Shown piece by piece: positions 35,291-58,783 of a stretch of DNA of 64,000 nucleotides; position 1 is the first letter of the stretch; each line of letters begins with the position of its first letter. The notes below the pieces were generated by a model. That model worked only from the letters and a program-made list of their open reading frames with translations, was not told the DNA's origin and made no database searches. The stretch comes from Falsiroseomonas bella (GTDB taxonomy: Bacteria; Pseudomonadota; Alphaproteobacteria; Acetobacterales; Acetobacteraceae). Location of the stretch: positions 62,001 through 126,000 of the forward strand of contig NZ_QGNA01000007.1 in NCBI RefSeq assembly GCF_003173615.1. The letters run 5' to 3'. The translations under genes and the position numbers were made by a program.

Positions 35291-35616
35291 TGTGCGTGGG
35301 CGGAGCGGCGCCATGTGCGCTCCAGCGCCGCTTCGTCGTGCCCAGCACCGAAAGTGCCCTGAGCCCGAAGCCTGCTGCCGACGCCCTGTGTTTCCTCGCC
35401 TCAACGCGCTTCGTGTTGCTGACAGCAGGCGCTGATCGAGGCGATGCTCTTGCTGACCGGCGACAGGCTCGGCGACTCCGGCCGGCGCGGGACGGGCACT
35501 GGAGGTGTCGATGCGTCGTCCACCTGGCGCGTGCAATCTTTTGTCATACTTGCGCAACCCGGGTGACGTGAATGCCCAGCATGTTCCCGACCGGGGAAAC
35601 CGGGCCGGGGGTCTAT
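35291..35616. other. intergenic region before the efflux operon
   Basis: The first 240 bp hold no gene I can support; short open frames on both strands look degenerate. The last 90 bp carry the GMMA-N5-YGTC box (35533-35545) and the leader of the TolC-like gene. No terminator was identified after the OYE gene. Confidence 0.45.
35533..35545 (+). promoter_or_regulatory. candidate CusR-type box upstream of efflux operon
   Basis: GCAA-TCTTT-TGTC followed by AT. It is one of five related sites (also 45869, 46194, 51003, 58771). Its end is 71 bp from the GTG at 35617, matching the 66-77 bp distances of the other sites and supporting that start over the ATG at 35572. Confidence 0.55.
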
Positions 35617-36813
35617 GTGCTTGCTCGATGGCTGATGGGCGCCGCTCTGGCGCTGGCGGTGGCGCCGGCGCTTGCCTCGCCCCTGCGTGAGGCCTTCGAT
35701 GCGGCGGCAAGCCTGAACGCCGAGATCCAGGCGCTGGAAGGGCGCCGGGCGGAGATCGACGCGCGGCTGCGCGGCGCCAATGCCCTGACCCCGGGCGCGC
35801 CGAGCATCGCCTTCGGCTACACCTCAGATCGCCTCACGCAGAACCGGGGGTTCCGCGAGGCGGAGGTCGAGCTCGGCGTGCCGGTCTGGCTGCCCGGCCA
35901 GTCGCGTGCGCAGCGCGACCTGGCCGGGGCGGAAGCGCAGCGGCTGGCGGCGAGGATCGCCCTCCAGCGCCTCACACTCGCCGGCGAGGTGCGCGACGCC
36001 TACTGGACCTGGGCGACCGCCGAGGCCGCGCTCACCGCCGCCAGGGCGCGTGCCGCGAGCGCATCGGCCTTGGCACGGGACGTCGCGCGGCAGGCACGGG
36101 GCGGGCAGGTCGCCCGCGCCGACGAGCTGCTGGCCTCCGCCGACGCGCGCGAGGCGGAGGCCGGTCTGCGCGAAGCGGAGATCGCGGTCCGCGAGGCGCG
36201 CCTCGCGTTCCATGCGCTGACCGGCCGAGACCCGCGCCCCGGCTGGGAGGAGGCGGCGCGCGAGGGCGCGGCCCTGGCCGCCGAGCACCCCCGCTTGGCC
36301 GCCGCACGGCTCGGCCAGGATGTCGGCCGGGCATCGCTGCGCGTGGCGACGGTCGAGGACCGCGACAACCCCGAGGTGTCCATCTTCGGGCGCCAAGAGC
36401 AGGACGAGCGTGGCGCGGGCTGGGACAGCCGGCTAGGCGTGCGTGTCCGCATCCCCTTCGCGCATGAGCCGCGCAACGCCGAACGGCGCGCCGCCGCCCA
36501 GACGGAGTTGACCACGGCGGCGGCCGAGACGGCGACCGCGCAGCGGCTGATCGCGGCGGAGCAGCAGCGGGCCCGCACCGCGCTCGCGGATGCCAGGGCC
36601 GCGGTCCGCCTCGCAGACGAGAGACACCGCTCCCTCACCGAAGCGGCCGGCCTGTCCGAGGCGGCCTATCGCGCCGGCCAGACCGGCCTTGCGGAGACGC
36701 TCCGGATCCGCGCCGCGCTCGCGGCCGCGGATGCGGACCGCCGGCGCAGCCAGGTCGCGCTGCGGCAGGCCGCGTCCCGATACAACCAGGCGCTCGGAGT
36801 GGAGCCGCGATAG
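35617..36813 (+). CDS. TolC-family outer-membrane efflux protein (CusC/CzcC-like), 398 aa
   Basis: Outer-membrane channel of the tripartite metal pump. The GTG at 35617 gives an ideal signal peptide (VLARWLMGAALALAVAPALAS); ATGs at 35572 and 35581 would add an acidic N-terminus. Two long helical repeats with Ala/Arg/Glu-rich coiled coil are visible (LREAFDAAASLNAEIQALEGRRAEI; LVAAEQQRARTALADARAAVRLADERHRSLTEAAGLSEAAYRAG). It lacks the lipobox of some CusC proteins. It is followed after 2 bp by the adaptor and then the pump. A GMMA-N5-YGTC box lies upstream. Confidence 0.88.
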   Translation: MLARWLMGAALALAVAPALASPLREAFDAAASLNAEIQALEGRRAEIDARLRGANALTPGAPSIAFGYTSDRLTQNRGFREAEVELGVPVWLPGQSRAQRDLAGAEAQRLAARIALQRLTLAGEVRDAYWTWATAEAALTAARARAASASALARDVARQARGGQVARADELLASADAREAEAGLREAEIAVREARLAFHALTGRDPRPGWEEAAREGAALAAEHPRLAAARLGQDVGRASLRVATVEDRDNPEVSIFGRQEQDERGAGWDSRLGVRVRIPFAHEPRNAERRAAAQTELTTAAAETATAQRLIAAEQQRARTALADARAAVRLADERHRSLTEAAGLSEAAYRAGQTGLAETLRIRAALAAADADRRRSQVALRQAASRYNQALGVEPR

Positions 36814-36815
36814 AG

Positions 36816-38516
36816 ATGACGTCACGTTCGCTCCGTGCCCTAACCTACGTCGGGCTGCTCCTCGGTGCCCTGCTGCTGTTCCGCCAAGCCCTGGCTCATG
36901 AGGGCCATTCGCATGGCGACGAGCCGCCGCCGCCGGCAGCCGCGGCCCCACGCGCGGAGGCGCATTCGGACCTCTTCGAGCTGGTCGCCGTGCTCGGGAC
37001 CGACGCGCGGCTGTGGATCTATCTGGACCGCCACGCCTCGAACGAGCCGATCGATGGTGCGACGCTCGCCATGAGCGTCGACGGGCAAGAGGTCGCCGTC
37101 GAGCGTGCCGGCGAGGCGGTTTATGTCGCGTCCCCCCCGGCGTTCGCCACGCCCGGTCCCCGAAACCTCCTCTTCACGATCACGGCCGGCGAGGAGATGG
37201 ACCTCCTGCCCGCGACGCTCGAGGTGCCGGCCGTGGCGGCTGGCGTCGCGGCGCCGCACGGCATCGCCGAGGATGCCGCGGCCCTTCTGCGCAACCCGCT
37301 GGTCTGGGGCTTCGCGGGCGTGTCGCTGCTGCTCGGCCTCCTGCTCGGCCGGCTTGCCTCGCCGCGCCGCCTGCCGGCGCTGGTCGAGGAGGAACCGGCA
37401 CCGGCGCCTGCTGCGGCGAAGCACGGTCCGACGCCGCTGCCGAAGCGCGCCGCCGCCCTGGTCCCGGCGCTGCTCCTGGTGGGCCTACTGCTGCCGACGG
37501 CGGCCTCCGCGCAGCCGATGGACGCGCCGCGCCGCCAGCCCGACGGAAGCGTCTTCGTGCCGAAGCCGACCCAGCGCCTGCTGGGCGTCCGCACAGTCAT
37601 GGCGGAACGCGCCGAAGCGCCGGTGGCGGTGCAGATCGTCGGTCAGGTCATCGCCGATCCCAATGCCTCCGGGCGCGTCCAGTCCCCGCAGGCCGGCCGC
37701 ATCGAGCCGCCGGAGGGCGGCTTCCCGACGCTGGGCTCCCGCGTCGAGCGCGGCCAGGTGCTGGCCTGGATCATCCCCGTCCTCGCCGCGCAGGAGCGCA
37801 GCGGCGTGCAGGCGAGCCTCGCCGAGCTCGACGCGCAGATCGCCATCGCGCAGGCGCGCGTGCAGCGCCTGTCGGGGTTGGCCGGCAGCGTCTCCGCCCG
37901 GGAGATCAGCGAGGCCAGGGCCGAGCTGGACGGGTTGCGCCAGCGCCGCGCGGCGGTGGAATCCGGGCTGAACGGCCGGGAGGCCGTGCGCGCCTCGGCC
38001 TCCGGCGTGTTGAGCGTGGTGAACGCGGTCGCCGGGCAGATCGTGGACGCCCGTGAGCCGCTCTTCGAGGTCGTGGATCCCGCCCGGCTCTGGATCGAGG
38101 CGGTCGCCTTCGACGCCGCGCTGGTCGCCGAGATCGCCGGCGCCTCCGCCGTCACCACCGGCGGCCAGCCGTTGGCCCTCTCCTTCATCGGCCGTGGCCT
38201 CGCGCTGAGGCAGCAGGCCGTGCCCCTGCAGTTCCGCATCGAGCAGGTGCCCCCGGGCCTGTCCGTCGGCACCCCCGTGACCGTGACGGTGCAGACGCCG
38301 CGGCGCGCGGGCGGAATCGTGCTGCCGTCCGAGGCGGTGGTGCGCAGCCCCGAAGGCAGCCAGATCGTGTTCGAGATGCCGGGCGCCGAGCGCTTCGTGC
38401 CGCGCCCGGTGCGCGTGCAGCCGCTCGATGGCAGGACGGTGCTCGTGACCGCCGGTCTCGATCGCGGCGCGCGCGTCGTGACGCAAGCGGCCGGCCTGAT
38501 CGCCCAGGTCCGCTGA
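36816..38516 (+). CDS. CusB/CzcB-like adaptor with N-terminal extension, 566 aa
   Basis: Membrane-fusion protein of the heavy-metal pump. The first 220 residues are an extra module: signal/TM, His-rich AHEGHSHGDE, a beta domain (about 50-140), a second TM (LVWGFAGVSLLLGLLLGRL), and a third hydrophobic stretch (RAAALVPALLLVGLLLPTAASAQ) before the canonical adaptor starts. The adaptor part has the RVQSPQAGRIE...ERGQVLAWI lipoyl half, a helical hairpin and the barrel. The internal signal-like segment ahead of the adaptor suggests a fusion of two proteins. Overlap-free, 3 bp before the pump gene. Confidence 0.87.
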   Translation: MTSRSLRALTYVGLLLGALLLFRQALAHEGHSHGDEPPPPAAAAPRAEAHSDLFELVAVLGTDARLWIYLDRHASNEPIDGATLAMSVDGQEVAVERAGEAVYVASPPAFATPGPRNLLFTITAGEEMDLLPATLEVPAVAAGVAAPHGIAEDAAALLRNPLVWGFAGVSLLLGLLLGRLASPRRLPALVEEEPAPAPAAAKHGPTPLPKRAAALVPALLLVGLLLPTAASAQPMDAPRRQPDGSVFVPKPTQRLLGVRTVMAERAEAPVAVQIVGQVIADPNASGRVQSPQAGRIEPPEGGFPTLGSRVERGQVLAWIIPVLAAQERSGVQASLAELDAQIAIAQARVQRLSGLAGSVSAREISEARAELDGLRQRRAAVESGLNGREAVRASASGVLSVVNAVAGQIVDAREPLFEVVDPARLWIEAVAFDAALVAEIAGASAVTTGGQPLALSFIGRGLALRQQAVPLQFRIEQVPPGLSVGTPVTVTVQTPRRAGGIVLPSEAVVRSPEGSQIVFEMPGAERFVPRPVRVQPLDGRTVLVTAGLDRGARVVTQAAGLIAQVR

Positions 38517-38519: not shown

Positions 38520-41500
38520 ATGTTCAACCTGCTCGTCACCGCGAGCCTGCGGAACCGGCTCTTCGTGCTCGCGGCTGCGCTGGTGCTCGTCATCTACGGC
38601 GCGATGACGCTGCAGCGCCTGCCGGTGGACGTCTTCCCGGACCTCAACAAGCCCGTCGTCACCCTGATGACGGAAGCGGAGGGGCTGGCGCCGGAGGAGG
38701 TGGAGCTGCTCGTCTCCTTCCCGCTCGAGACGGCCATGAACGGCATGCCGGGCGTGACGCGCGTGCGGTCCGTCTCCGGCGTCGGCCTCTCCATCGTCTT
38801 CGTCGAGTTCGACTGGGGCACCGACATCTGGATCAACCGCCAGCAGGTGAGCGAGCGGCTGTCCCTGGTTCGCGCCCAGCTGCCGCCCAACGTCCTGCCG
38901 CAAATGGCGCCCGTCTCCTCTATCATGGGCGAGATCATGCTGGTGGCGATGTCCACTGACGGACGCGCCAGCCCGATGGAGCTGCGCGAGCTGGCGGACT
39001 GGGTGGTGCGGCCGCAGCTGCTGACGATCCCCGGGGTTTCGCAGGTCATCCCGATCGGCGGCGAGGTGCGCCAGTACCGGGTCACGCCTGACGTCGCGCG
39101 CATGAACGCGCTCGACGTCACGCATGAGCAGCTGGTCGCGGCGCTGCGCCAGTTCGGCGCCAACACCGGCGGCGGCTACGTGGACCAGGCCGGGCGGGAA
39201 TACCTGATCCGCAATATCGGCCGCACCGCGCGCCTGCAGGACCTTGCCGGCACGCCCGTCGCCTTTCGCGCTGGCCAGCCGATCCTGCTGCACCAGGTCG
39301 CGACCGTGGACTTCGCGGCCCGCCTGAAGCGGGGCGAGGCCGGCAGCATGGGGCGGCCGGCGGTGATCCTCTCCATCCAGAAGCAGCCCTCGGCCGATAC
39401 GGTGCGGCTGACCCAGCAGGTCGAGGCGGCGCTGCGCGACCTGCAGCGCGCCATGCCGCCCGGCGTGGTCGCGGACAAGGTGCAGTTCCGTCAGGCCGAC
39501 TTCATCCAGGCCTCGATCGGCAACGTGCAGAAGGTGCTGCTGGAGGCGGTGGCGGTCGTCGCGGTGGTCCTGTTCATCTTCCTGCTGAACGGGCGCACCA
39601 CCTTCATCTCGCTGACCGCCATCCCGCTCTCCGTGCTGATCACGGTCGTCGTCTTCCACCTGCTCGGGCTGTCCATCAACACGATGACGCTCGGCGGCCT
39701 CGCCATCGCCATCGGCGAGCTGGTGGACGACGCCGTGGTGGACGTGGAGAACGTGTTCCGGCGGCTGCGCGAGAACCGGCAGGCGCCGCACCCGCTGCCC
39801 GCTCTGACCGTGATCGCGCGGGCGAGCCAGGAGGTCCGCTCCGGCATCGTCTACGCGACGATGATCGTCATCCTCGTCTTCGTGCCGCTCTTCGCGTTGT
39901 CCGGCATCGAGGGCCGGCTCTTCGCGCCGCTCGGCGTGGCCTACATCGTCTCCATCCTCGCCTCGCTCATCGTCTCCATCACCGTGACGCCGGTGCTCTG
40001 CTACTACCTCCTGCCGCGCATGAAGCGAATGGAGCACGGCGACAGCTGGCTGGTGCGGGTGCTGAAGCGCTGGAACGAGCGCGCGCTGCTCTGGGCCTTC
40101 GCGCGCGCGCGGCTGGTCTACCTGGCGGCCGGGCTCGGCGTCGCCGGCGCGATCGCCACCGTCCCCTTACTGCCGCGTTCCTTCCTGCCGCCCTTCAACG
40201 AGGGCACGCTGACCATCAGCCTGCAGTTCCAGCCCGGCATCAGCCTGGCCGAGGCCGACCGGCTGGGCCGCGAGGCGGAGCGGCTGATCATGCAGGTGCC
40301 GGAGGTGCGCACCGTCGGGCGCCGCACGGGCCGGGCCGAGCTCGACGAGCATGCGGAAGGCGTCCATTCCTCCGAGATCGACGTCTCGCTGCATCCCTCG
40401 GAGCGGGGCAAGCAGGCGATCGCCGCGGACATCCGCGCGCGGCTCGGCGTGCTGCCCGGCAACGCCAATGTCGGCCAGCCCATCGGCCATCGCCTCGACC
40501 ACATGCTCTCGGGCGTGCGAGCCGAGATCGCGCTCAAGATCTACGGCGATGACCTCGACACGCTGCGGGTCCTCGCCGACACCATGCAGCAGCGCCTTGC
40601 TGCCGTGCCCGGGCTGCGCGACCTGCAGGTCGAGCGGCAGGTGCGGGTGCCGCAGTTGCAGGTCGCGGTCAATCACGAGCGCGCCGCGCTCTATGGCGTT
40701 TCGGCGACCGCCGTCGCGGAAGCCCTCCAGTCGCTCTCCGGCGGGCAGGTGGTGAGCGAGGTGGTGGACCGTTCGCGCCGCTTCGACATCGTGCTGCGCC
40801 TCGCCGACGCCGACCGCACCGGGGCCGGCCTCTCCGCGGTGATGATCGAGACGCCTGGCGGCCGTGTCCCGCTTTCGCTGCTGGCCGAGATCCGCGACAC
40901 CGACGGTCCCAACCAGATCCTGCGCGAGAACGGGCGGCGCCGGATCGTGGTGCTGGCCAACACCGACGGCTCCGACATGGCCGGCATCGTCGCGCGCATC
41001 CGCGCCGAGATGGCGGCCGCGCAACTCCCATCAGGGTATTTCTTCGCCCTCGAAGGCACCTTCCAGGCGCAGGAGGAGGCGTCGCAGCTCATCGCGCTGC
41101 TCTCGCTCGTCTCGCTCTCGATGATCTTCGTTGTGCTCTACGGCCGCTACCGCTCCGCGGTCCTGGCGCTGATCATCATGGGCAACGTGCCGCTGGCGCT
41201 GGTGGGCGCGATCGCGGCACTGTGGATCGCCGGGCAGCCCCTCTCGGTCGCCTCGATGATCGGGTTCATCACGCTCGCCGGCATCGCGACGCGCAACGGC
41301 ATCCTCAAGGTCAGCCACTATCTGAACCTCGCGCTGTTGGAGGGCGAGCGGTGGGGGCTCGCGCTCGTCATCCGCGGCAGCCTGGAGCGGCTGACGCCGG
41401 TGCTGATGACCGCGCTCTCGGCAGGCTTCGCGCTGATCCCGCTGATGATCGGCGCCAGCGAGCCGGGCAAGGAGATCCTGCACCCGGTCGCCATCACCAT

Positions 41501-41633
41501 CTTCGGCGGCCTGATCACGGCGACCCTGCTCGACACCTTCCTCACGCCGCTTCTCTTCCACCGCTTCGGCCGACCGGCGCTCGAGCGCCTGCGCGCGCGC
41601 CAGGGCGAGCTGACGGTGGCCGAGGCCTACTGA
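38520..41633 (+). CDS. CusA/CzcA-type heavy-metal RND pump, 1037 aa
   Basis: Proton-driven metal exporter of the HME class. Marks: LVTASLRNRLFVLAAALVLVIYG start, DVFPDLNKPVVTLMTEAEGLAPEEVE, the TM4 relay IGELVDDAVVDVENVFRRL with acidic residues in the CzcA pattern, and TGRAELDEHAEGVHSSEIDVSL of this subfamily. Full length. Operon and neighbours point to copper (or silver); the exact ion cannot be read from sequence alone, and the classical CusA methionine triad was not located by eye. Confidence 0.93.
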   Translation: MFNLLVTASLRNRLFVLAAALVLVIYGAMTLQRLPVDVFPDLNKPVVTLMTEAEGLAPEEVELLVSFPLETAMNGMPGVTRVRSVSGVGLSIVFVEFDWGTDIWINRQQVSERLSLVRAQLPPNVLPQMAPVSSIMGEIMLVAMSTDGRASPMELRELADWVVRPQLLTIPGVSQVIPIGGEVRQYRVTPDVARMNALDVTHEQLVAALRQFGANTGGGYVDQAGREYLIRNIGRTARLQDLAGTPVAFRAGQPILLHQVATVDFAARLKRGEAGSMGRPAVILSIQKQPSADTVRLTQQVEAALRDLQRAMPPGVVADKVQFRQADFIQASIGNVQKVLLEAVAVVAVVLFIFLLNGRTTFISLTAIPLSVLITVVVFHLLGLSINTMTLGGLAIAIGELVDDAVVDVENVFRRLRENRQAPHPLPALTVIARASQEVRSGIVYATMIVILVFVPLFALSGIEGRLFAPLGVAYIVSILASLIVSITVTPVLCYYLLPRMKRMEHGDSWLVRVLKRWNERALLWAFARARLVYLAAGLGVAGAIATVPLLPRSFLPPFNEGTLTISLQFQPGISLAEADRLGREAERLIMQVPEVRTVGRRTGRAELDEHAEGVHSSEIDVSLHPSERGKQAIAADIRARLGVLPGNANVGQPIGHRLDHMLSGVRAEIALKIYGDDLDTLRVLADTMQQRLAAVPGLRDLQVERQVRVPQLQVAVNHERAALYGVSATAVAEALQSLSGGQVVSEVVDRSRRFDIVLRLADADRTGAGLSAVMIETPGGRVPLSLLAEIRDTDGPNQILRENGRRRIVVLANTDGSDMAGIVARIRAEMAAAQLPSGYFFALEGTFQAQEEASQLIALLSLVSLSMIFVVLYGRYRSAVLALIIMGNVPLALVGAIAALWIAGQPLSVASMIGFITLAGIATRNGILKVSHYLNLALLEGERWGLALVIRGSLERLTPVLMTALSAGFALIPLMIGASEPGKEILHPVAITIFGGLITATLLDTFLTPLLFHRFGRPALERLRARQGELTVAEAY

Positions 41634-42120: not shown

Positions 42121-42936
42121 ATGCGGCGCGATCCGGCCAGCGTGCCGGGCGTCGCCCGACCTGACCACGGTTGCATGATGGACCCCGCACGCGGCACCAC
42201 GCCCCCGCTCGACCCCGAGGCGCACATCCTTGTCGTGGAGGACGACGGCGAGATGCGCGCCCTCATCGTGAAGCTGCTGCGTCAGAGCGGCTTCCGGGTC
42301 ACGGGTGCGCGCGACGGGCGCGAGATGTGGGAGACGCTGGGCAACGCGCAGGTGGACCTCGTGCTGCTCGACGTGATGCTGCCGGGGCAGTCCGGGCTCG
42401 ACCTCTGCCGTGCGCTGCGCGCGAAGTCCGGCGTGCCGATCATCATGGTCACGGCGCGTGGCGGCGAGACGGACCGCGTGCTCGGGCTCGAGCTCGGCGC
42501 CGACGACTACATCCCGAAGCCGTTCGGCCCGGCCGAGCTTCTCGCCCGCGTCCGCGCCCTACTGCGTCGCTCGCGGGGCGCGGCCGGGGAACCTGTCGCC
42601 GGCTCGGCCGGGGAGAGCATCACCTTCGGAGGCTGGACGCTCGACACGCGGCGGAGGGAGCTGGCCGCTCCGGACGGCACCGTGGTGGATCTCTCGGGTG
42701 GCGAGTACGACCTCCTGCTGGCGTTCTGCGAGCATCCCCAGCGGGTGCTGAGCCGCGACCAGCTGCTGGACCTCGCGCGCAACCGCATGGCCTACAACGG
42801 CACCGAGCGATCGGTGGACGTGATGGTCAGCCGCCTGCGCCGCAAGCTCGAGCCGACGGAGGACAGCCCGGCGGTCATCAAGACCATCCGCGGGGCCGGC
42901 TACATGCTCGTGCCGGCGGTGCGGCGCGGATCGTGA
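42121..42936 (+). CDS. OmpR-family response regulator (CusR/CopR-like), 271 aa
   Basis: Receiver domain (about 36-150) with acidic pair EDD, phosphate acceptor aspartate in VLLDVMLPG, and KPFGPAELLARV. OmpR winged helix follows (about 170-265: SGGEYDLLLAFCEHPQRVLSRDQLLDLA...SVDVMVSRLRRKLEP...IKTIRGAGYMLV). The start at 42121 has no clear ribosome site; ATG 42175 is an alternative. Coupled to the kinase by GTGA. Placed behind a metal-efflux operon, it most likely responds to periplasmic copper and is the best candidate to bind the GMMA-N5-YGTC boxes. Confidence 0.93.
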   Translation: MRRDPASVPGVARPDHGCMMDPARGTTPPLDPEAHILVVEDDGEMRALIVKLLRQSGFRVTGARDGREMWETLGNAQVDLVLLDVMLPGQSGLDLCRALRAKSGVPIIMVTARGGETDRVLGLELGADDYIPKPFGPAELLARVRALLRRSRGAAGEPVAGSAGESITFGGWTLDTRRRELAAPDGTVVDLSGGEYDLLLAFCEHPQRVLSRDQLLDLARNRMAYNGTERSVDVMVSRLRRKLEPTEDSPAVIKTIRGAGYMLVPAVRRGS

Positions 42937-44297
42937 GCCGCCTGCGGCGCCTGCTGCCCGACACGCTCGGCGGGCGCATCATGCTCGTGCTGCTTGTCGG
43001 CCTGATGGCGTTTCACCTGGGAAGCCTCTGGCTGCACCAGGTCGGCACGGACGCGCTGCTGGGCAGCACGCGCGAGGCGCAGCTGGCCGAGCAGCTGGCC
43101 GGCGCGAAGCGCGCGGTCGCCGAGCTGCCGCAGGCCGAGCGGGACCGCACGGCCCACGCGCTCTCCTCCGCGAGCCTCGACATCCATTGGACGCCGCAAC
43201 CGACGGTCCGGCTGGTGGACGAGACGAGCCCGCGCATCGAGGCGCTCAGGGCACGGCTTGTCGAACTGGTCCCGGATCTTGACGTGGCCGACCTCCGGCT
43301 GGGTTACGCCGAGGAGGGCACCCCTGGCCACGACCCCGCGCGGCACCAGCTGCTCGGCGCGATTCCACTTCCGGACGGGAGCTGGCTGAACTTCTCCGCC
43401 GCGCTGTTCCGTTCCACCGCGCCGGAGCACGCGACGCTCGCCTCCACCACGGCGATGGGCGTCGGCATCCTGCTCCTCGGCCTCGTCGTCGTCCGGCTGA
43501 TCGGGCGGCCGCTGCGCGCGCTATCCGAGGCCGCGGACCGCATCGGCGGCTCCGGCCCGTCGGCGCCGGTCGCCGAGGTCGGCCCGCGGGAGATCAGGCA
43601 CGCGGCGCAGGCCTTCAACCGCATGCAGGCGAGGATCGACACGCTGATCGCCGACCGCACCCAGGCGCTCGCGGCCGTCAGCCACGATCTGCGGACGCCG
43701 ATCGCGCGGCTGCGGCTGCGGGCCGGCTTTCTCGAGGACACCGAGGCCGCGCGGGCGATCGACGCCGACCTCGACGAGATGGAGGCGATGATATCCTCGA
43801 CGCTGGCCTATCTGCGCGGCGAGACCGAAAGCGAGAAGCGGCGGCCCGCGGACCTCGTGGCCATGCTGGAGACGCTGTGCGACGCCGCCGTCGACGCGGG
43901 CGCCGCCGTCTCGTTCCAGGGGCCGCCGCAGGCGCGGCTGGTCTGCAGCCCCGTGCTGCTGAAGCGGGCCTTCGCGAACCTGATCGACAACGCGGTGAAG
44001 TATGGCGGTGCGGCGCGGGTCGCGCTCGAGGACCGGGACAGCGAGGCGGTCGTCGCCATCGAGGATGACGGGCCTGGCATCCCCGAGGCGGAGATGGACG
44101 CCGTGTTCGAGCCGTTCCGCCGTCTCGAGCAGTCGCGCAACCGGGGCACCGGGGGCAGCGGGCTCGGGCTCACCATCGCCCGCCGCGCGGTGGAGTCGCA
44201 TGGCGGGACGGTCGTGCTGGCCAACCGGCTCGGCGGCGGGCTGGTGGCGACGGTCCGGCTCCCCAGATCGTCGGAACATGAGAGGAGGCAGGCATGA
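42933..44297 (+). CDS. sensor histidine kinase (CusS-like), 454 aa
   Basis: Membrane sensor. TM1 near 12-32 (IMLVLLVGLMAFHLGSLWL), a periplasmic domain of about 135 residues, TM2 (TAMGVGILLLGLVVVRLIG), HAMP, then the H-box AAVSHDLRTPIARLRLR, N-box NLIDNAVKYGG, DDGPGIPEAEM and GTGGSGLGLTIARR. The GTG start overlaps the regulator stop; its own stop overlaps the DUF411 start (ATGA), tying copper handling to the same transcript. Confidence 0.92.
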   Translation: MSRLRRLLPDTLGGRIMLVLLVGLMAFHLGSLWLHQVGTDALLGSTREAQLAEQLAGAKRAVAELPQAERDRTAHALSSASLDIHWTPQPTVRLVDETSPRIEALRARLVELVPDLDVADLRLGYAEEGTPGHDPARHQLLGAIPLPDGSWLNFSAALFRSTAPEHATLASTTAMGVGILLLGLVVVRLIGRPLRALSEAADRIGGSGPSAPVAEVGPREIRHAAQAFNRMQARIDTLIADRTQALAAVSHDLRTPIARLRLRAGFLEDTEAARAIDADLDEMEAMISSTLAYLRGETESEKRRPADLVAMLETLCDAAVDAGAAVSFQGPPQARLVCSPVLLKRAFANLIDNAVKYGGAARVALEDRDSEAVVAIEDDGPGIPEAEMDAVFEPFRRLEQSRNRGTGGSGLGLTIARRAVESHGGTVVLANRLGGGLVATVRLPRSSEHERRQA

Positions 44298-44761
44298 TCG
44301 CACGTCGCGGTCTGCTCACGGTGGGTCTGGCCGGACTGGCGGCGCCGCGCGTCGTGCGTGCCGAGCCACTGCCGAAGCTGCAGGTCTGGCGCGATGCCGG
44401 ATGCGGCTGCTGCGGGGGCTGGGTCGAGCACATGCGCGCCGCCGGCTTCGCGGTGGAGGACAACGTCGTGCGCTCGGTGGCGGCGGCGCGACGGATGCTG
44501 GGCACGCCGGCCGACCTGCTGTCCTGCCACGCCGGCCTCGTCGGCGGCTTCGTGCTGGAGGGGCATGTGCCGGCTCTCGCGGTGAAGCGACTGCTTGCGG
44601 AGCGGCCGGCCGGCATCCGCGGCCTCGCCGTGCCTGAGATGCCGCTCGGCTCACCGGGCATGGAAGTGCCTGGCCGGGCACCGGACACTTATGACTTGGT
44701 GGCATTCGGCGAGGGGCCGCACCGGACCTTCATGCGCTTCCGGGGCGGCGAGCCGGTCTGA
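44294..44761 (+). CDS. DUF411 metal-binding protein, 155 aa
   Basis: Periplasmic protein with a signal (MIARRGLLTVGLAGLAAPRVVRA). DUF411 marks: LQVWRDAGCGCCGGWVEHMRAAGF (CxCC cluster near 37-40), TPADLLSCHAGLVGGFVLEGHVPALAVKRLL, AVPEMPLGSPGME. DUF411 genes accompany copper operons widely; a copper-binding role is inferred from the Cys cluster and the family. It is coupled to the kinase by ATGA. Confidence 0.92.
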   Translation: MIARRGLLTVGLAGLAAPRVVRAEPLPKLQVWRDAGCGCCGGWVEHMRAAGFAVEDNVVRSVAAARRMLGTPADLLSCHAGLVGGFVLEGHVPALAVKRLLAERPAGIRGLAVPEMPLGSPGMEVPGRAPDTYDLVAFGEGPHRTFMRFRGGEPV

Positions 44762-45802: not shown

Positions 45803-45868
45803 CGAAGCTGCTCCTTGGCGGCGCAGCGACCCTGCGCCGCCAGGATGTCGCTGGCGTGCCGGGCGCGC

Positions 45869-45881
45869 GACAAACCATTGC
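45869..45881 (-). promoter_or_regulatory. candidate CusR-type box upstream of YncE gene
   Basis: On the minus strand GCAA-TGGTT-TGTC-GC, 66 bp before the propeller gene start. Same form as the sites at 35533, 46194, 51003 and 58771. Confidence 0.5.
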
Positions 45882-46193: not shown

Positions 46194-46206
46194 GACATCT
46201 TTTGTC
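46194..46206. promoter_or_regulatory. candidate CusR-type box between copZ-like and copper-store genes
   Basis: GACA-TCTTT-TGTC, a perfect GACA/TGTC dyad with a 5-bp centre. It is 77 bp from the chaperone start (minus) and 114 bp from the copper-store start (plus), so it could serve either or both. Confidence 0.55.
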
Positions 46207-46728: not shown

Positions 46729-46810
46729 GCGCTATCACGAAAGCGTGATCGGCGTCGGGGTCGGTCGGATGCGCTTGACCCTCCCAACTTGGGAGACATG
46801 ACGGTCGCGT
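46726..46810 (+). repeat. duplicated CueR promoter region, copy 2
   Basis: Gap-free match to 33369-33453. It contains a TCACG-AAAG-CGTGA dyad (46735-46748), extended to ATCACG/CGTGAT, just after the copper-store stop, and then the CueR box. The upstream dyad could be a terminator stem for the copper-store gene or another operator. Confidence 0.7.
46775..46795 (+). promoter_or_regulatory. CueR-type promoter box upstream of copA
   Basis: TTGACC (46775-46780) then CTCCCAA-C-TTGGGAG (46781-46795). Position and dyad are those expected for CueR activation of copA, with a stretched spacer. Ends 43 bp before the start codon. Confidence 0.85.
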
Positions 46811-49427: not shown

Positions 49428-50858
49428 TCAGGCGAAGATGTAGTCCGACCCGTCGGCCGAGATCCCGGCTACGAAGCCGGGTTCCTCGATGAACATGAAG
49501 TCGCTCTGCCGCAGATCGGCACGCGCGACGCCCAGCAGCAAGGCGGAGCCTTCGTCGGTCCCGTCGCCATCCGTGTCCCAGCTGACCAGCGCGCCTTCGT
49601 CGGAGTCGCTCACCGAGACCTCGTCCGGCCTTATGTCGCGCAGGGCGAGGTGGTCGAAGGCGCCCTCGGCGAGCCCGGTCACCTCGAGATCGGTGATCAC
49701 GTCGTGGCCGCTGTCGGGCGTGACGATGAAGGCATCGGCACCGGTGCCGCCCGTCATCGTGTCGTTGCCGGTGCCGCCCTCCAGCATGCCGTGACCGCCG
49801 CCTTCGTCCAGCACATCGTCGCCGTCCCCGCCCATGAGCTCGTCGGCCATCGCGCCGCCGGCCAGGCTGTCCGCCCCGTCCCCGCCGTCGAGCCGGTCCA
49901 TGCCGTCGCCGCCGTCGAGCGTGTCCCGGCCGATGTCGCCTTGGAGGATATCGTCGCCGCCCCCACCGGCGAGGGCGTCGTCGCCGTTACGGCCGATGAC
50001 GTGGTCGTTGCCCTCGCCCCCGACGAGCTCGTCGGCGCGGGCGCGGCCGATCATCGCCTCTCCGCCATCCACGGCCAGCGTGACGCCGCCTGGCCCGATG
50101 TTGCGCGTCGCGATGTCGTCGCCCTCGATCTCCGGGCCAGCCTGGCTGGGCGTCGGCGCCTCGCCGGTCGGCGCGGTGGCATCCCGGCTCGCGGAGGGCA
50201 GGTCGGGGCTGTCGGCGAACATGAAGTCGTCCTGCGCGAGGTCGGCCATCCGCACGCCTTCCAGCAGGACCGAGCCGCCGTCCCAGAACACGCGCACGCC
50301 GGTGGCGGCGTCCTCGAAGCCGAGATCCTCCCAGCGCAGGTCGCGCAGCGCCAGGTGGTCGAACATGCCGGGCCCCGCCGTGAAGTCCCGGATCACGTCG
50401 TCGCCGCTCTCCGGATCCACCATGAAGGCATCAGGGCCCGCTCCGCCGATCAGGGTATCGTTGCCGGGGCCGCCATCCAGACCGCTATGCCCCGCGCCCT
50501 CGTCCAGCACGTCGTCGCCCGACCCGCCGAACAGCATATCGGCCATCGCACCGCCGTAGATCGTGTCCGCGCCGTCGCCGCCGTGCAGATGATCCATGCC
50601 GTCGTTGCCCGAGAGCAGGTCATTGCCGCCGCCGCCGTCGATGACGTCATCCTCCGCGCCGCCGCCGATCGCGTCATCGCCGCCCTGGCCCCAGACGTGA
50701 TCGCGTGCCTCCGTGCCGGCGATGCGACCTGGCTCGTCGCCATCGAGCAGCAGCCGGTATTCATGGTGGGCAGCCGGCACACGGATCGCGAAAGGTGGGC
50801 TGGCGTCGTCCCAGTGGCGACCGTCGGCGGGGTTCGTCTGGTGGCGGTTGGTGTGCAT
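49428..50858 (-). CDS. RTX calcium-binding protein with internal duplication, 476 aa
   Basis: Probable type I-secreted protein with no Sec signal. Glycine-rich nonapeptides (GGxGxDxUx) form two blocks, about 52-145 and 275-375. Each is followed by a matching tail: DAFMVDPESGDDVIRDF...FDHLALRD and DAFIVTPDSGHDVITDL...FDHLALRD. So the protein is two tandem copies of a roughly 200-residue unit. The start at 50858 has GAGGA upstream; the long frame beyond it is not coding. No secretion genes (HlyB/HlyD type I) are visible here. Function in a copper island is unknown; it shares a divergent upstream region with DUF305. Confidence 0.82.
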   Translation of the reverse strand: MHTNRHQTNPADGRHWDDASPPFAIRVPAAHHEYRLLLDGDEPGRIAGTEARDHVWGQGGDDAIGGGAEDDVIDGGGGNDLLSGNDGMDHLHGGDGADTIYGGAMADMLFGGSGDDVLDEGAGHSGLDGGPGNDTLIGGAGPDAFMVDPESGDDVIRDFTAGPGMFDHLALRDLRWEDLGFEDAATGVRVFWDGGSVLLEGVRMADLAQDDFMFADSPDLPSASRDATAPTGEAPTPSQAGPEIEGDDIATRNIGPGGVTLAVDGGEAMIGRARADELVGGEGNDHVIGRNGDDALAGGGGDDILQGDIGRDTLDGGDGMDRLDGGDGADSLAGGAMADELMGGDGDDVLDEGGGHGMLEGGTGNDTMTGGTGADAFIVTPDSGHDVITDLEVTGLAEGAFDHLALRDIRPDEVSVSDSDEGALVSWDTDGDGTDEGSALLLGVARADLRQSDFMFIEEPGFVAGISADGSDYIFA

Positions 50859-51002: not shown

Positions 51003-51015
51003 GACATACTTTGTC
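51003..51015 (+). promoter_or_regulatory. candidate CusR-type box upstream of DUF305 gene
   Basis: GACA-TACTT-TGTC followed by AT, 71 bp before the DUF305 start and 144 bp from the divergent RTX gene. Confidence 0.55.
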
Positions 51016-51086
51016 ATGAACCGCTGACGGCGCCGACATGAAGCCGCGCGAAGATGTGCGAGGTTCATCGGCCGGGAGAAAAGTAG

Positions 51087-51653
51087 ATGGTTGGTCTTCG
51101 CGCTGCTCTTGCGGTCATGGGTGCCGTGAGCGTTGCCGTCGCAGCGGGCACAGTGCTCGCGCAAGGAATGCCGCATCACGGCGGTCATCGCTCGGCCACG
51201 CCGGTGCAGGCATCGCCGGCGCAGAGCCCGCCCACGCAGCAGGAGATGGAGCGGATGATGCAGATGATGCAGCGGATGACGCCGCAGCAGATGCAGCAGA
51301 TGCAGTCGATGACGCAGCACATGCAGGGCAACATGATGGGCGGAGGCCGGTCCACCGATCCGCACGCGGGTCACGGGCAGGCCGCGCAGCGCGCGGCGAG
51401 TTCGCCCTCGACAGCGGCCTTCCTGGCCGCGAACGAGAAGATGCATCGCGAGATGGCGCTGCAGTTCACCGGTGACGCCGACCGCGACTTCGCGGCCGCG
51501 ATGATCCCGCACCACCAGGGCGCCATCGACATGGCCCGCATCCAGATCCAGTACGGCCGCGACCCCGACATGCGCCGCCTCGCCGAGGCGGTGATCCGCG
51601 AGCAGGAGCGCGAGATCGCCGAGCTGCGCGCCTTCCTCGCCAGGTATCGCTGA
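51087..51653 (+). CDS. DUF305 periplasmic protein with Met/Gln-rich linker, 188 aa
   Basis: Signal peptide (MVGLRAALAVMGAVSVAVAAGTVLA), then a low-complexity Met/Gln/His-rich stretch (QQEMERMMQMMQRMTPQQMQQM, DPHAGHG), then the DUF305 four-helix domain (FTGDADRDFAAAMIPHHQGAIDMARIQIQYG). DUF305 proteins are frequent in copper islands; the Met and His residues suggest periplasmic Cu binding. A GMMA-N5-YGTC box is upstream. Confidence 0.9.
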   Translation: MVGLRAALAVMGAVSVAVAAGTVLAQGMPHHGGHRSATPVQASPAQSPPTQQEMERMMQMMQRMTPQQMQQMQSMTQHMQGNMMGGGRSTDPHAGHGQAAQRAASSPSTAAFLAANEKMHREMALQFTGDADRDFAAAMIPHHQGAIDMARIQIQYGRDPDMRRLAEAVIREQEREIAELRAFLARYR

Positions 51654-54480: not shown

Positions 54481-54947
54481 CGGCGCGAACGCGCCCGGGT
54501 CGGGCCGACCTGGCGTGGCTGCGCACGCTGCGGGCGTACCTCGCCGTGCTGGTGGCGCTGATGCTGGCGTGGGAGGTGGCGCAGCTTCCCCTCTACACGC
54601 TCTGGCGTGAGCGCACAGCCGGCGAGATCGCCTGGGCGGTGATCCACTGCACCGCCGGCGACGCGATCATCGGCATGAGTTCCCTTGGCGCCGCGCTGCT
54701 GCTCGCCGGCGCGCCGGAATGGCCGCGGGCGCGCTTCGGCCCGGTGCTGTTGCTGACTCTTGGGATCGGTCTCGCCGTCACCGTCTACCTCGAATGGCTG
54801 AACGTCGAGGTGAAGCGCGCCTGGGCCTATGCGGAGGCAATGCCGCGCCTGCCGCCGTTCGGGACGGGCCTGACGCCTTTCCTGCAATGGGTGTTGCTGC
54901 CGCCCGCCGCGCTGCTTGTCGCACGTTGGCGCGGCGGTGGCGCGTGA
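54477..54947 (+). CDS. small membrane protein coupled to copB, 156 aa
   Basis: Start overlaps the copB stop (ATGA). About four hydrophobic segments: [61 protein letters not shown] and [20 protein letters not shown]. No metal-ligand cluster. No family recognised. The coupling implies a role with the CopB ATPase or the following hydrolase. Confidence 0.75.
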
Positions 54948-54960
54948 CGGGGGACATCGG

Positions 54961-56358
54961 ATGAGGGCGAAGCAGCAGGGCAGGGCGGTGACGGGTCCCG
55001 CCAGCCTCACCTTCCTGGGCGGCGCCGGCACCGTCACGGGGTCGAAGTACCTGGTTGAGCTGCGCGGTTCCAGACTGCTCGTCGATTGCGGCCTGTTCCA
55101 GGGCTTCAAGCAGCTCCGCCTGCGCAACTGGGATCCGTTCCCGGTGGAGCCGCGCAGCATCGACGCGGTGGTCCTGACCCATGCGCATCTGGACCATACG
55201 GGCTATCTCCCGCTCCTGGTCCGGAACGGCTTCCGCGGGCCGATCTACTGCACGCCGCCCACGCTGGACCTTTCCGCGCTGATCCTCCCGGACAGCGGGC
55301 ACCTGCAGGAGAAGGACGCCGACTTCGCCAACCGGCACGGCTTCTCGAAGCACAAGCCGGCGCTGCCGCTCTACACGCAGGCGGACGCGGAGCGCTCGCT
55401 GCGCCAGTTCCGCACGCTCGACTTCGGGCGCGAGCACGAGATCCTGCCCAGTGTGACGATCCGCTACCGCCTGGCAGGGCACATCCTCGGCGCCGCCAGT
55501 GTCGAGTTGGTGCATGACGGGGTCCGCACCGTCTTCTCGGGCGACATCGGCCGTTTCGACAGCCCGACCATGCCGGACCCCGAGACGTTGCCGCTCGCCG
55601 ACCACCTGCTGGTCGAGTCCACCTACGGCAACCGCCGCCACGATCCGAAATCGCCCGAGGATGCGCTGGCCGAGGTCATCACCCGCACCTCGGCCCGCGG
55701 CGGCACGGTGCTGATCCCCTCCTTCGCAGTCGGGCGGGCCCAGGCGCTGCTGTTCCACCTGCAGCGTCTGAAGGCGGCGCGCCGCATCCCGGACCTGCCG
55801 GTCTTCCTCGACAGCCCGATGGCCCAGGATGCGAGCGATATCCTCTGCCGCTACCCCGGGCTGACGCGGCTGAGCGAGGGCGAGTGCCGCGCCGCCTGCG
55901 GCGTCGCCCGCTACGTGCGCGACGTCGAGGAGTCGAAGTCGCTCGACGTCACCCCCATGCCCAAGGTCATCATCTCCGCGAGCGGTATGGCCACCGGCGG
56001 CCGCGTGCTGCACCACCTGAAGGTCTTCGCGCCCGACCGCCGCAACACGATCCTCTTCAGCGGCTTCCAGGCCGGCGGCACCCGCGGCGCCGCGATGGTG
56101 GCCGGCGCCGAAGCCGTGAAGATCCACGGAAGCTACATCCCCGTCCGGGCCGAGATCGCCAACCTGCCGATGCTCTCGGCGCATGCCGATGCGGACGAAC
56201 TGCTCCGCTGGCTCAAGGGCTTCGAGCGCCCGCCGAAGGCGACCTGGGTCGTGCACGGCGAGCCCGAGGCGTCCGACACGCTTCGGCATCGCATCGAGGA
56301 GGAGTTGGGCTGGCCCTGCCGGGTCGCGGAGCACGGCGGCCGCGCGGTGCTGTCGTGA
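54961..56358 (+). CDS. beta-CASP metallo-beta-lactamase hydrolase, 465 aa
   Basis: MBL-fold nuclease-type enzyme of the bacterial CPSF/Ysh1-like group. Zinc motif THAHLDHTG (H74, H76, D78, H79), LAGHILGAAS, FSGDIGRFDSP, then the beta-CASP insert and C-terminal LSAHADADELLRWL. The group includes RNA endo/exonucleases, but substrates of this branch are not established. Start ATG at 54961; the stop overlaps the phosphorylase GTG. First gene of a coupled trio with nucleotide-salvage enzymes. Confidence 0.9.
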   Translation: MRAKQQGRAVTGPASLTFLGGAGTVTGSKYLVELRGSRLLVDCGLFQGFKQLRLRNWDPFPVEPRSIDAVVLTHAHLDHTGYLPLLVRNGFRGPIYCTPPTLDLSALILPDSGHLQEKDADFANRHGFSKHKPALPLYTQADAERSLRQFRTLDFGREHEILPSVTIRYRLAGHILGAASVELVHDGVRTVFSGDIGRFDSPTMPDPETLPLADHLLVESTYGNRRHDPKSPEDALAEVITRTSARGGTVLIPSFAVGRAQALLFHLQRLKAARRIPDLPVFLDSPMAQDASDILCRYPGLTRLSEGECRAACGVARYVRDVEESKSLDVTPMPKVIISASGMATGGRVLHHLKVFAPDRRNTILFSGFQAGGTRGAAMVAGAEAVKIHGSYIPVRAEIANLPMLSAHADADELLRWLKGFERPPKATWVVHGEPEASDTLRHRIEEELGWPCRVAEHGGRAVLS

Positions 56359-57872
56359 GCGGCGCCGCCGACGGCAGGCTGGCCGCGAAGCGGACAGGCA
56401 TCGACACGCAGCACGAGACGGTCGCCTACATGAGCACCGACTGCCCGCTCTGCCGTTCCGAGGGCTTCGCCGCCCACGCCCGCGTCAAGCTGACCACCGC
56501 GGCCGGTCGGACGATCCTCGCCACGTTGCACCATGTCGCGGACGGGCTGGTGTCCCTCCATGAGGTCGGTCTGTCGGAATCGGCCTGGCGGCGCCTCGGC
56601 GTGATCCCCGGCGAGCCGGTGGCCGTGAGCCATCCGCCTCCGCTCCGGTCGCTCGGCCATGTCCGCGGCAAGATGTACGGCCGGCGGCTGGGCGAGGAGG
56701 CCCTGACGGACATCATCGCCGACATCGTCGCCGGGCACTACGATGACATCGCGCTCTCGGCCTTCCTGACGGCCTGCACGGCGCGGCCGCTCGACGACCA
56801 CGAGACCGTCGGCCTGACGCGGGCCATGGTCGAGGCCGGCGATCGCCTGGGCTGGCAAGGAGCTCCCATAGCCGACAAGCACAGTGTCGGCGGGCTGCCG
56901 GGCAACCGCACCACGCCGGTGGTGGTCGCCATCGCCGCCGCCTGCGGGCTGACCATGCCGAAGACCTCCTCGCGTGCCATTACCTCCCCGGCCGGCACGG
57001 CAGACACCATGGAGACGCTGGCGCCTGTGGATCTCGACCTGCCGGCGATGCGGCGCGTGGTCGAGAGTGAAGGCGGATGCATCGTCTGGGGCGGTGCCGT
57101 GCGGCTCAGCCCCGCGGACGACACGCTGATCCGGGTCGAGCGCGCGCTGGACCTCGACAGCGAGGGGCAGCTCGTCGCCTCGGTGCTGTCGAAGAAGATC
57201 GCCGCAGGCTCGACGCATGTCGTGCTGGACGTCCCGGTCGGCCCCACCGCCAAGGTGCGCAGCGCCGCGGCCGCCGAGGCGCTCGGCGCGAGCCTGGAGC
57301 GCGTCGCGGCGGCGTTCGGGCTGGCGACCCGGATCGTCACCAGCGACGGCACGCAGCCGGTCGGAAGGGGAATAGGACCGGCACTCGAGGCGCACGACGT
57401 GCTGGCGGTATTGCAGGGGACCGCTGACGCGCCCGCCGACCTGCGGGCGCGCGCGCTGGCGCTGGCCGGGGCCCTGCTCGAGCTGACGGGGGCCGCCGCG
57501 CGCGGCAGGGGCCAGGAGGTGGCGGGCGCCGCCCTGGCCGATGGCAGGGCCTGGGCAAAGTTCCAGCGCATCTGCGAGGCGCAGGGCGGCATGCGGCGGC
57601 CGCCCAGGGCGGCCTTCCGAAGGCCCGTCCTGGCGTGCCAGGGCGGGCGTGTTGCGAGCATCGACAACCGCCGCCTCGCCCGCGTCGCCAAGCTCGCCGG
57701 CGCGCCGGCCGACAAGGCGGCGGGGCTGGAGTTGCATGCGGCCGTCGGCCAGCGCGTCGCCGTCGGCGAGCCGCTGTTCACGGTGCACGCCGAGAACGCC
57801 GGCGAGCTGGATTACGCGCTCGCCTACGTGGCGGCGAACCCCGACATCCTGGCGCTGGGGGATCCGTCGTGA
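56355..57872 (+). CDS. AMP/thymidine phosphorylase family protein, 505 aa
   Basis: Nucleoside or nucleotide phosphorylase of the AMPpase branch, longer than DeoA because of an N-terminal domain of about 90 residues (AAKRTGIDTQHETVAYM, VKLTTAAGRTILATLHHV). Core motifs: KMYGRRLGEEALTDIIADIVAG, IADKHSVGGLPGNRTTPVVVAIAAACG, KTSSRAITSPAGTADTMETLAPVD. In archaea AMP phosphorylase makes ribose-1,5-bisphosphate from AMP; the bacterial role here is inferred. GTG start overlapping the MBL stop; its stop overlaps the PRPP synthetase GTG. Confidence 0.88.
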   Translation: MSGAADGRLAAKRTGIDTQHETVAYMSTDCPLCRSEGFAAHARVKLTTAAGRTILATLHHVADGLVSLHEVGLSESAWRRLGVIPGEPVAVSHPPPLRSLGHVRGKMYGRRLGEEALTDIIADIVAGHYDDIALSAFLTACTARPLDDHETVGLTRAMVEAGDRLGWQGAPIADKHSVGGLPGNRTTPVVVAIAAACGLTMPKTSSRAITSPAGTADTMETLAPVDLDLPAMRRVVESEGGCIVWGGAVRLSPADDTLIRVERALDLDSEGQLVASVLSKKIAAGSTHVVLDVPVGPTAKVRSAAAAEALGASLERVAAAFGLATRIVTSDGTQPVGRGIGPALEAHDVLAVLQGTADAPADLRARALALAGALLELTGAAARGRGQEVAGAALADGRAWAKFQRICEAQGGMRRPPRAAFRRPVLACQGGRVASIDNRRLARVAKLAGAPADKAAGLELHAAVGQRVAVGEPLFTVHAENAGELDYALAYVAANPDILALGDPS

Positions 57873-58777
57873 CCCGGCCGCTGGTGGTTCCCCTCGATGT
57901 TGACGATCCCCTGGCCCCCGGGCTCGCCATGGCGCTCAGCGGCGAACTGGCCTCGGCCGAGATCCGGCGCTTCCCGGACCGCGAGACCTACCTGCGCTAC
58001 GGCTCGTCGCCGCAAGGCCGGGAGGTCGTCCTGCTCTGCACCCTCGACCGGCCGGACCCGAAGGCGCTGCCCCTCATGTTCGCGGCGGAAACCGCGCGTG
58101 AGCTCGGCGCCGCCGGCGTCGGACTGGTCGCACCCTATCTCGCCTACATGCGCCAGGACCGGCGATTCCGGGAGGGTGAGGCCGTGACCTCGCTGCTCTT
58201 CGCCGGCTTCGTCTCGCGCTGCGTGGACTGGCTGGTGACGGTGGATCCCCATCTGCACCGGCACGCCTCCCTCGCGGCGCTGTACGGCATCCCGGCGGTA
58301 GCTGCGCACGCGGCCCCTCTGCTCTCGGCGTGGATCGCGCGGGAGGTGCCGAGCCCTCTGGTCGTCGGTCCCGACGAGGAGAGCGAGCAATGGGCCGCCG
58401 AAGTCGCACGGGCGGCCGGGGCGCCCCACACCGTGCTGCGCAAGGTGCGGCGCGGCGACCGGGACGTCGAGGTGACCCCCCCCGATCCGGCGCTCCTGGA
58501 GGGGAGGACGCCAGTCCTCGTCGATGACATCGTCTCCACGGCGCGGACCATGATCGAGACCGTCGGGCATCTGCGGGCGGCGGGGGCCGCCGCCCCAGTC
58601 TGCATGGCCGTCCACGGCGTCTTCGCGGAGGGCGCCCACGATGCACTGCTGGGCGCCGGCGCGGCCCGCGTGCTGACGACGAACACGATTCCCCACGCGA
58701 GCAATGCGATCGACGTGACGGCGCTGCTCGGCGCGGCCGTGGTCGACCTGCTGCTACAGCGCGGGCGGCAGCATTGA
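57869..58777 (+). CDS. ribose-phosphate pyrophosphokinase (PRPP synthetase)-like, 302 aa
   Basis: Phosphoribosyltransferase fold of the PRPP synthetase type. Marks: RRFPDRETYLRY, APYLAYMRQDRRFREGEAVTS, TVDPHLHRH, and the PRPP loop PVLVDDIVSTARTMIETV. It differs from the housekeeping enzyme, where the loop usually reads DDIISTGGT. Third gene of the coupled trio, so it likely works with the phosphorylase on ribose phosphates. The stop overlaps the GMMA-N5-YGTC box of the multicopper oxidase. Confidence 0.9.
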   Translation: MTRPLVVPLDVDDPLAPGLAMALSGELASAEIRRFPDRETYLRYGSSPQGREVVLLCTLDRPDPKALPLMFAAETARELGAAGVGLVAPYLAYMRQDRRFREGEAVTSLLFAGFVSRCVDWLVTVDPHLHRHASLAALYGIPAVAAHAAPLLSAWIAREVPSPLVVGPDEESEQWAAEVARAAGAPHTVLRKVRRGDRDVEVTPPDPALLEGRTPVLVDDIVSTARTMIETVGHLRAAGAAAPVCMAVHGVFAEGAHDALLGAGAARVLTTNTIPHASNAIDVTALLGAAVVDLLLQRGRQH

Positions 58778-58783
58778 TTCGTC
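58771..58783 (+). promoter_or_regulatory. candidate CusR-type box upstream of multicopper oxidase
   Basis: GCAT-TGATT-CGTC followed by AT; most divergent member of the set. Ends 66 bp before the oxidase start and overlaps the end of the PRPP synthetase gene. Confidence 0.45.

Follow-up and report, generated by a model that had tools for sequence, protein, structure and literature searches.

The DNA analysed here is a stretch of 64,000 nucleotides of the Falsiroseomonas bella genome (contig NZ_QGNA01000007.1, positions 62,001 to 126,000; hereafter the window), which carries an island of copper-handling genes. It encompasses a cus operon, within which lie the genes for an OmpR-subfamily response regulator and an EnvZ-like sensor kinase (here named CopR and CopS), and separate genes for a YVTN/YncE-type β-propeller protein, a DUF326 cysteine-rich protein, a CopM-family (DUF305) metallochaperone and a multicopper oxidase (Table 1). 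Five short sites, at 35533, 45869, 46194, 51003 and 58771, stand in front of these units and, as far as the sequence tells, most copper units of the island share a conserved switch, whose probable binder is the island's own, predicted copper-sensing regulator.

An original prediction, made from the letters of the window, had described the five sites as a second copper box, GMMA-N5-YGTC, that resembles the CusR box of Escherichia coli and exists beside a CueR-type palindrome. All five are present, with a 5-bp centre between the arms, and a second box does lie in front of copper genes next to the CueR-type palindrome, but the consensus is too loose: it has 19 matches in the window, where shuffled sequence would give 19.8, so that as written it carries no signal, and it misses the site at 58771, whose fourth base is a T. 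The genome has 15 matches to the strict form GACAN5TGTC (reversed control, 9), of which two lie within the island, and exactly two to GACATNNTTTGTC (46194 and 51003; control, 0). Allowing one mismatch in GACAN5TGTC yields 701 matches genome-wide against 611 in the control, which makes it useless alone, and GACATNNTTTGTC was left unused as family-wide evidence: it is found in 156 of 299 genomes, with reversed control matches in many of them. A distance of 66–77 bp to the start codon, also part of that prediction, holds outright for 45869 (66 bp from the end of the core), 51003 (71 bp) and 58771 (66 bp) and, if the GTG at 35617 is used, for 35533 (71 bp); it fails at 46194, where 114 bp separate the core from the ATG at 46321, behind AAGGAGG.

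A 37-bp element of direct half-sites

The sites are real, but judged by sequence a 37-bp array of direct half-sites describes the box better than a CusR-like palindrome of 13 bp. Four of them (35533, 45869, 51003 and 58771) share the element GNMAT-N5-GTCAY-N6-GNNAY-N6-GACRT, which comprises up to four direct half-sites with a pitch of 10, 11 and 11 bp (offsets 1, 11, 22 and 33); direct half-sites 10–11 bp apart on one helix face, as expected of OmpR/PhoB-type operators, are thus found in four window sites. The same four, out of five, carry GACRT at offset 33, which rescues two sites that are weak as 13-mers. The site at 46194 has an exact first half only; its half-sites 3 and 4 are not recognisable (csp-type subclass).

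For comparison we collected 40 copR loci (713 kb, 33 genomes), defined by the 40 best matches of CopR outside its own genome, the nearest of which belong to roseomonads (Acetobacteraceae/Roseomonadaceae), and 20 control loci (385 kb) around OmpR-type paralogues, hand-picked from weaker matches, 17 of which fall into one housekeeping group in the regulator tree. The most independent test is a position-weight matrix (PWM) trained on 32 deduplicated sites of the relatives, with the window excluded. A position-weight scan of the genome had been proposed with the original prediction; in the window, the five top-scoring positions are exactly the five reported ones (scores in Table 1), the next scoring 6.3, while the highest score is 15.0 in 20 Markov windows (one strand each) and 18.8 in the 20 control loci. 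By the matrix, 46194 is therefore marginal, although its 13-mer is exact.

The spacing recurs in the relatives as well. In a scan that relies on the GACA and TGTC arms only, GACA-Nk-TGTC occurs 27 times in the copR loci at k=5 and 0–13 times at each other k from 0 to 12, and once at k=5 in the control loci. The recurring form is GACAT-NNTTT-GTCAY, and the relaxed core G[ACT][AC]ATNNTTTGTCA has 37 matches in 27 of 40 copR loci and falls in 0 of 20 control loci (Fisher p=1.5e-7). When the left half is left unconstrained, GNNAY stands at the exact expected place in 39 of 60 deduplicated TTTGTCRY anchors, and at each of 13 other offsets in at most 4; GNNAT stands there in 32 of 60, against 0 of 15 control anchors. 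An alignment of 47 sites, deduplicated to 33 or 35 for different counts, has conserved columns that were not selected for (A14, Y15, R16, G22, A25 and an A at column 49, the last in 26/33) and peaks of GACRT at offset 33 (8/35; background 0.16 per offset) and of GCAAY at offset 22 (6/35; background 0.12). A first half-site is present at 39 anchors; of these, 8 have GACRT at 33, at most one has it at each of 40 other offsets (16–56), and 15 have GNNAY at 22.

The scan pattern for the whole element, GNMATNNTTYGTCNY-N6-GNNAY-N6-GACRT, was built from the window sites and relatives and so finds the four island sites by construction. With up to one mismatch it matches no other place in the 5.94-Mb genome (reversed control, 0), and with up to three it finds one further match, in an RTX-repeat open reading frame (ORF; reversed control, 6). 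Neither of two near matches has the look of copper control: C1:581626 (2 mismatches) lies inside an RTX-repeat ORF, and C1:1043705 between genes named by eye as an XRE-type regulator and an apolipoprotein N-acyltransferase-like protein. Across 299 family genomes, the pattern at up to one mismatch has 29 matches in 19 genomes (reversed control, 3), distributed over 14 of 41 genomes with copR (E≤1e-90, own genome included) and 5 of 258 others (p=6.7e-10).

Target genes and other sites of the island

To the 32 deduplicated sites of the relatives we assigned the most gene-like downstream ORF, followed by a Pfam scan. Families usual in copper loci account for 22 of these ORFs, with DUF305 (6), outer-membrane efflux (4), cupredoxin (4), CusB-type (3), β-propeller (2), LTXXQ (2) and HMA (1) proteins; β-propeller genes that carry the site are found in L194 and L196.

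Table 1. Coordinates of the sites, genes and predicted promoter elements in the window; site sequences were read directly in the window, and half-sites are listed in the order of offsets 1/11/22/33
Feature	Coordinates	Strand	Details
cus operon operator	35533-35569	+	site GCAATCTTTTGTC at 35533; GCAAT, GTCAT, GCAAC, GACGT; 0 mismatches; PWM 41.7
β-propeller gene operator	45845-45881	-	site GCAATGGTTTGTC at 45869; GCAAT, GTCGC, GGCAC, GACAT; 0 mismatches; PWM 31.0
DUF326 (csp-like) gene core site	46194-46206	+	site GACATCTTTTGTC at 46194; exact 13-mer, 1 of 2 in genome; PWM 17.1
CopM/DUF305 gene operator	51003-51039	+	site GACATACTTTGTC at 51003; GACAT, GTCAT, CTGAC, GACAT; 1 mismatch; PWM 41.5
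Multicopper oxidase gene operator	58771-58807	+	site GCATTGATTCGTC at 58771; GCATT, GTCAT, GCAAC, GACGT; 1 mismatch; PWM 29.5
Predicted -10, cus operon	35580-35585	+	CATGTT; start ~35592; leader 25 nt
Predicted -10, β-propeller gene	45829-45834	-	CAGGGT; start ~45822; leader 20 nt
Predicted -10, CopM gene	51050-51055	+	GAAGAT; start ~51062; leader 25 nt
Predicted -10, oxidase gene	58818-58823	+	GAGAAT; start ~58830; leader 20 nt
cusC-like outer membrane channel	35617-36813	+	PF02321 (scanned from 35572); GTG start preferred
cusB-like adaptor	36816-38516	+	PF16576, PF13437
cusA-like RND pump	38520-41633	+	PF00873, 837.9 bits; 90% identical in L016
OmpR-subfamily response regulator (CopR)	42121-42936	+	PF00072 receiver, PF00486 winged helix
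EnvZ-like sensor kinase (CopS)	42933-44297	+	HAMP, HisKA, HATPase_c
DUF411 protein, operon end	44294-44761	+	PF04214
YVTN/YncE-type β-propeller protein	44771-45802	-	TIGR02276, PF21783
DUF326 cysteine-rich protein	46321-46728	+	PF03860; start 46321
CopM-family (DUF305) metallochaperone	51087-51653	+	NF049983, 106.9 bits (cut-off 90); PF03713
Multicopper oxidase	58850-60268	+	PF07731, PF07732, PF00394
CueR-like palindrome	27806-27820		CTCCCAASNTGGGAG, exact
CueR-like palindrome	33424-33438		CTCCCAASNTGGGAG, exact
CueR-like palindrome	46781-46795		CTCCCAASNTGGGAG, exact
CueR-like palindrome	62748-62762		CTCCCAASNTGGGAG, exact

The CueR-like palindrome is found exactly at four places in the 5.94-Mb genome, all in the window, where with up to one mismatch it has 8 matches on both strands against 0.01 expected. 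The MerR-family regulator encoded at 62245-62754 probably uses all four as operators. A clean split as proposed, with periplasmic functions under the second box and cytosolic export under the CueR box, does not hold up: the DUF326 protein behind 46194 (N-terminus MHVQQMISTHPHVRG) has by eye no signal peptide, and the palindrome at 27806 precedes an RND-type adaptor gene at 27844. In relatives, a good core site is found at the 3' end of cueR-like genes, pointing inward (L024 9194, L214 8843, L216 11239 and L224 11241; the genes were identified by tblastn in L024 and by eye in the other three).

Sites with a GTCGC second half form a subclass, to which 46194 belongs together with L025 9612, L213 9300, L220 10518 and L222 9347. 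Its form GACATNTTTTGTCGC, which 46194 resembles, is seen in these four, is often followed by AAACC or GAACC near columns 27–32 and precedes DUF326-type and other genes, which suggests a second promoter layout. An RTX calcium-binding-repeat gene (49428-50858, minus strand) diverges from the CopM gene, with a possible start ~145 bp from 51003; the copper box also stands in front of RTX genes in relatives, at L025 site 6985 (by eye) and L222 site 6516 (Pfam), and a copper-controlled RTX protein may recur across them. Between the copper genes, 54916-58777 encompasses genes for a β-CASP metallo-hydrolase (RNA-processing type), a nucleoside-phosphorylase-like and a ribose-phosphate pyrophosphokinase-like protein, the last of which runs at its end into the oxidase operator.

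Candidate regulator, promoters and rival readings

The island encodes a single OmpR-type regulator, as had been predicted (the next tblastn match in the window has an E-value of 0.44), and its association with the sites, by locus and by genome, makes CopR the best candidate binder. With its receiver and Trans_reg_C winged helix it is of OmpR/PhoB type, and the nearest of 88 NCBIfam models is OmpR (NF007005, 230.5 bits), which at a cut-off of 331 does not make it an OmpR equivalogue; it fails the heavy-metal model TIGR01387 (cztR_silR_copR; 140 bits, cut-off 279.2). CopS likewise lies nearest, of 68 models, to EnvZ (NF007004, 204.8 bits; below the cut-off of 415) and fails the heavy-metal kinase model TIGR01386 (124.5 bits, cut-off 292.55). 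CopR shares 48% identity with E. coli OmpR, 42% with PhoB and 38% with CusR. In a tree of 54 regulators, 21 copR rows cluster together (support 87/99, drawn open) and are separated from both E. coli OmpR and the housekeeping paralogue, with E. coli CusR as a very long outer branch.

Four residues shared by CopS-type kinases, His28, Trp33, Trp86 and His166, differ from those most frequent in paralogous kinases. In an alignment against 20 of these paralogues, His28 is found in 38 of 41 rows and His166 in 36 (window included), while the three commonest residues of the paralogues at these positions are Q/E/A and E/P/D, respectively. By eye, His28 lies close to where the first membrane helix ends on the outer side, and His166 immediately precedes the second helix. 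The CopS kinase of Pseudomonas aeruginosa, modelled on E. coli CusS, is described as having invariant metal-binding residues His41 and His140 within a sensor region of residues 34–151 (PMC7763554), and the likeness of the two histidine pairs is suggestive; His28 and His166 may bind metal.

The promoter layout assumes that column 49 holds the -11 A of a -10 element, which then spans columns 48–53. This A is present in all four strong window sites, and their predicted -10 elements have an A second and a T last; the final T is not general in relatives (9/33). The last half-site ends 10 bp before the predicted -10, and the third overlaps the -35 position. In the Pho box, 11-bp repeats end 10 bp before the -10, with the same placement of the last half-site and the same overlap with the -35. 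From the distance to the -10, transcription starts can be predicted to a precision of a few bases, and the start predicted for the cus operon lies downstream of the ATG at 35572, so that the GTG at 35617 is favoured; the cusC gene of L198 begins at the equivalent place. A promoter for an ECF sigma factor was considered and dropped, the spacing from GCAAC to the conserved A being unlike the ECF consensus.

What was observed directly is that the sites exist, are rare in the genome, are conserved and go together with copR loci. We infer, with a probability of about 80%, that the sites are operators of an EnvZ/OmpR-type copper two-component system, CopS-CopR (42121-44297), which takes in binding, activation, the promoters and copper sensing. 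CopS would sense periplasmic copper, perhaps through His28 and His166, one close to either end of its sensor region, and phosphorylated CopR would bind head to tail on direct half-sites of the forms GNNAY and GACRT, spaced by 10, 11 and 11 bp. These would occupy approximately -59 to -23, overlapping a -35 or taking its place and stopping 10 bp short of the -10, and CopR would recruit RNA polymerase in the manner of PhoB at the Pho box. Its own cus-copRS operon would be turned on in this way, as would the genes for the β-propeller, CopM and the multicopper oxidase; the DUF326 gene would be activated from a shorter site with another layout. The regulator gene sits inside the cus operon, whose intergenic gaps are 2, 3, 4, 72, -4 and -4 bp, and positive feedback is therefore expected.

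An unlikely alternative is that CopR binds GACA-N5-TGTC as a symmetric head-to-head dimer, as on a CusR-like palindrome, with the downstream half-sites incidental. The arms are perfect at two window sites, GACA stands on the left in 16 of the 60 anchors of the relatives, half-sites 3 and 4 are a minority feature there, and AgrR reportedly uses an inverted repeat with flanking direct repeats (PMC7380067). While 39 of the 60 left halves fit the direct form GNNAY, this pattern is the looser one, so that the two counts are no fair contest; still, 23 further halves fit GNNAY only, and 11 are exactly GCAAT, which breaks the palindrome. These halves, together with the enrichment of GCAAY at 22 and GACRT at 33 and the kinship of the regulator to OmpR rather than CusR, favour head-to-tail binding, and the classic CusR-spaced TGACAN4TGTCA is absent from the 713 kb around the 40 regulator relatives.

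Less probable still is another binder, be it the housekeeping OmpR-type paralogue, PhoB or a regulator outside the island. The genome does hold a second match to CopR (two at E≤1e-60), and the half-site GTCAT resembles a Pho-box half. Against this, the relaxed core is absent from all control loci, which surround OmpR-type paralogues, genomes with the element are enriched for copR, and in G038 a site lies directly before copR. That short patterns match by chance in GC-rich DNA would account for the counts of GMMA-N5-YGTC and of one-mismatch GACAN5TGTC; as an explanation of the sites themselves it is next to negligible, being contradicted by the matrix trained on relatives and also by the rarity of GACATNNTTTGTC, the locus association and the offset counts.

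Several observations weigh against operators of CopR in the form proposed. The site at 46194 lacks, besides half-sites 3 and 4, the -10 spacing, the two downstream half-sites are found in the minority of the relatives' anchors noted above (15/39 and 8/39), and in sites of the GACAT type half-sites 1 and 2 nearly form a palindrome, which is compatible with inverted binding. The relaxed core is absent from 13 of 40 copR loci, and ten of the 32 downstream ORFs fall outside the copper-linked families. Five of these ten have no family, and some of the five are probably not real genes; the others encode a thiolase, a PEMT/ICMT protein, a DUF3141 protein, an RTX protein and, scoring below the cut-off of its family, an ArsP_1-like fragment. 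The 37-bp element is missing, at up to one mismatch, from 27 of 41 copR genomes, which makes the full pattern a conservative description. Finally, the relaxed core and the 37-bp pattern were designed after viewing the window and relatives, partly in the same genomes, and the loci share ancestry, so that the p-values overstate the case.

Known copper and OmpR-family operators

The analysis predicts which genes make up a copper regulon in roseomonad Acetobacteraceae and by which operator they are controlled, and it makes the proposal that copper is sensed in the EnvZ/OmpR branch open to testing. A search joining copper, OmpR and Acetobacteraceae found no paper in the literature collection used, and among the listed papers on copper, Roseomonas and two-component systems no title or abstract opening names such a system. 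At even odds, copper sensing arose in roseomonads within the EnvZ/OmpR branch, apart from CusRS/CopRS, by way of a kinase with an acquired pair of histidines at the membrane faces and a Pho-box-like operator of four half-sites, the likeness to CusR being superficial; if true, this would be a convergent evolution of signal and operator.

The CusR, PcoR, CopR and AgrR systems resemble the one proposed here in having a regulator of the OmpR/PhoB family, RND or oxidase targets and GACA/TGTC-like arms. The box in the cusR-cusC region of E. coli K-12 is TGACAATTTTGTCA, and both the CusR box AAAATGACAAnnTTGTCATTTT (PMC11195947) and the AgrR box ATKACAN4TGTMAT (PMC7380067) are described as inverted repeats. 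Their ACA and TGT arms, as given in these reports, are 4 bp apart, whereas the window sites have a 5-bp centre and read as a direct array of up to four half-sites, and CopR fails TIGR01387. Of the CusR likeness claimed in the original prediction, the second box in front of copper genes stands and the palindrome probably gives way to direct repeats: a CusR look-alike arm does not imply a CusR-type system.

Tandem direct half-sites such as those found here are also the arrangement of the Pho box of PhoB and of the RstA box, which differ in half-site sequence, while the targets here are copper genes; the RstA box TACATNTNGTTACA is reported to have a 10-bp pitch (PMC4117788). Direct-repeat copper operators, too, do exist. 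CopR of Corynebacterium glutamicum, for which a single operator is reported in that genome, binds a direct repeat, TGAAGATTTnnTGAAGATTT (PMC3140484), and thus is a copper regulator on a direct repeat, as proposed here, with a different sequence, spacing and number of operators. CopRS of Synechocystis, described as recognising direct repeats TTCATN4-5TTCAT (PMC4182526) and as controlling the DUF305 gene copM and an RND operon (PMC4335983), shares with CopS-CopR the copper two-component system, the direct repeats and the DUF305 and RND targets, and differs in the sequence and number of the half-sites; the two are likened here by operator and targets.

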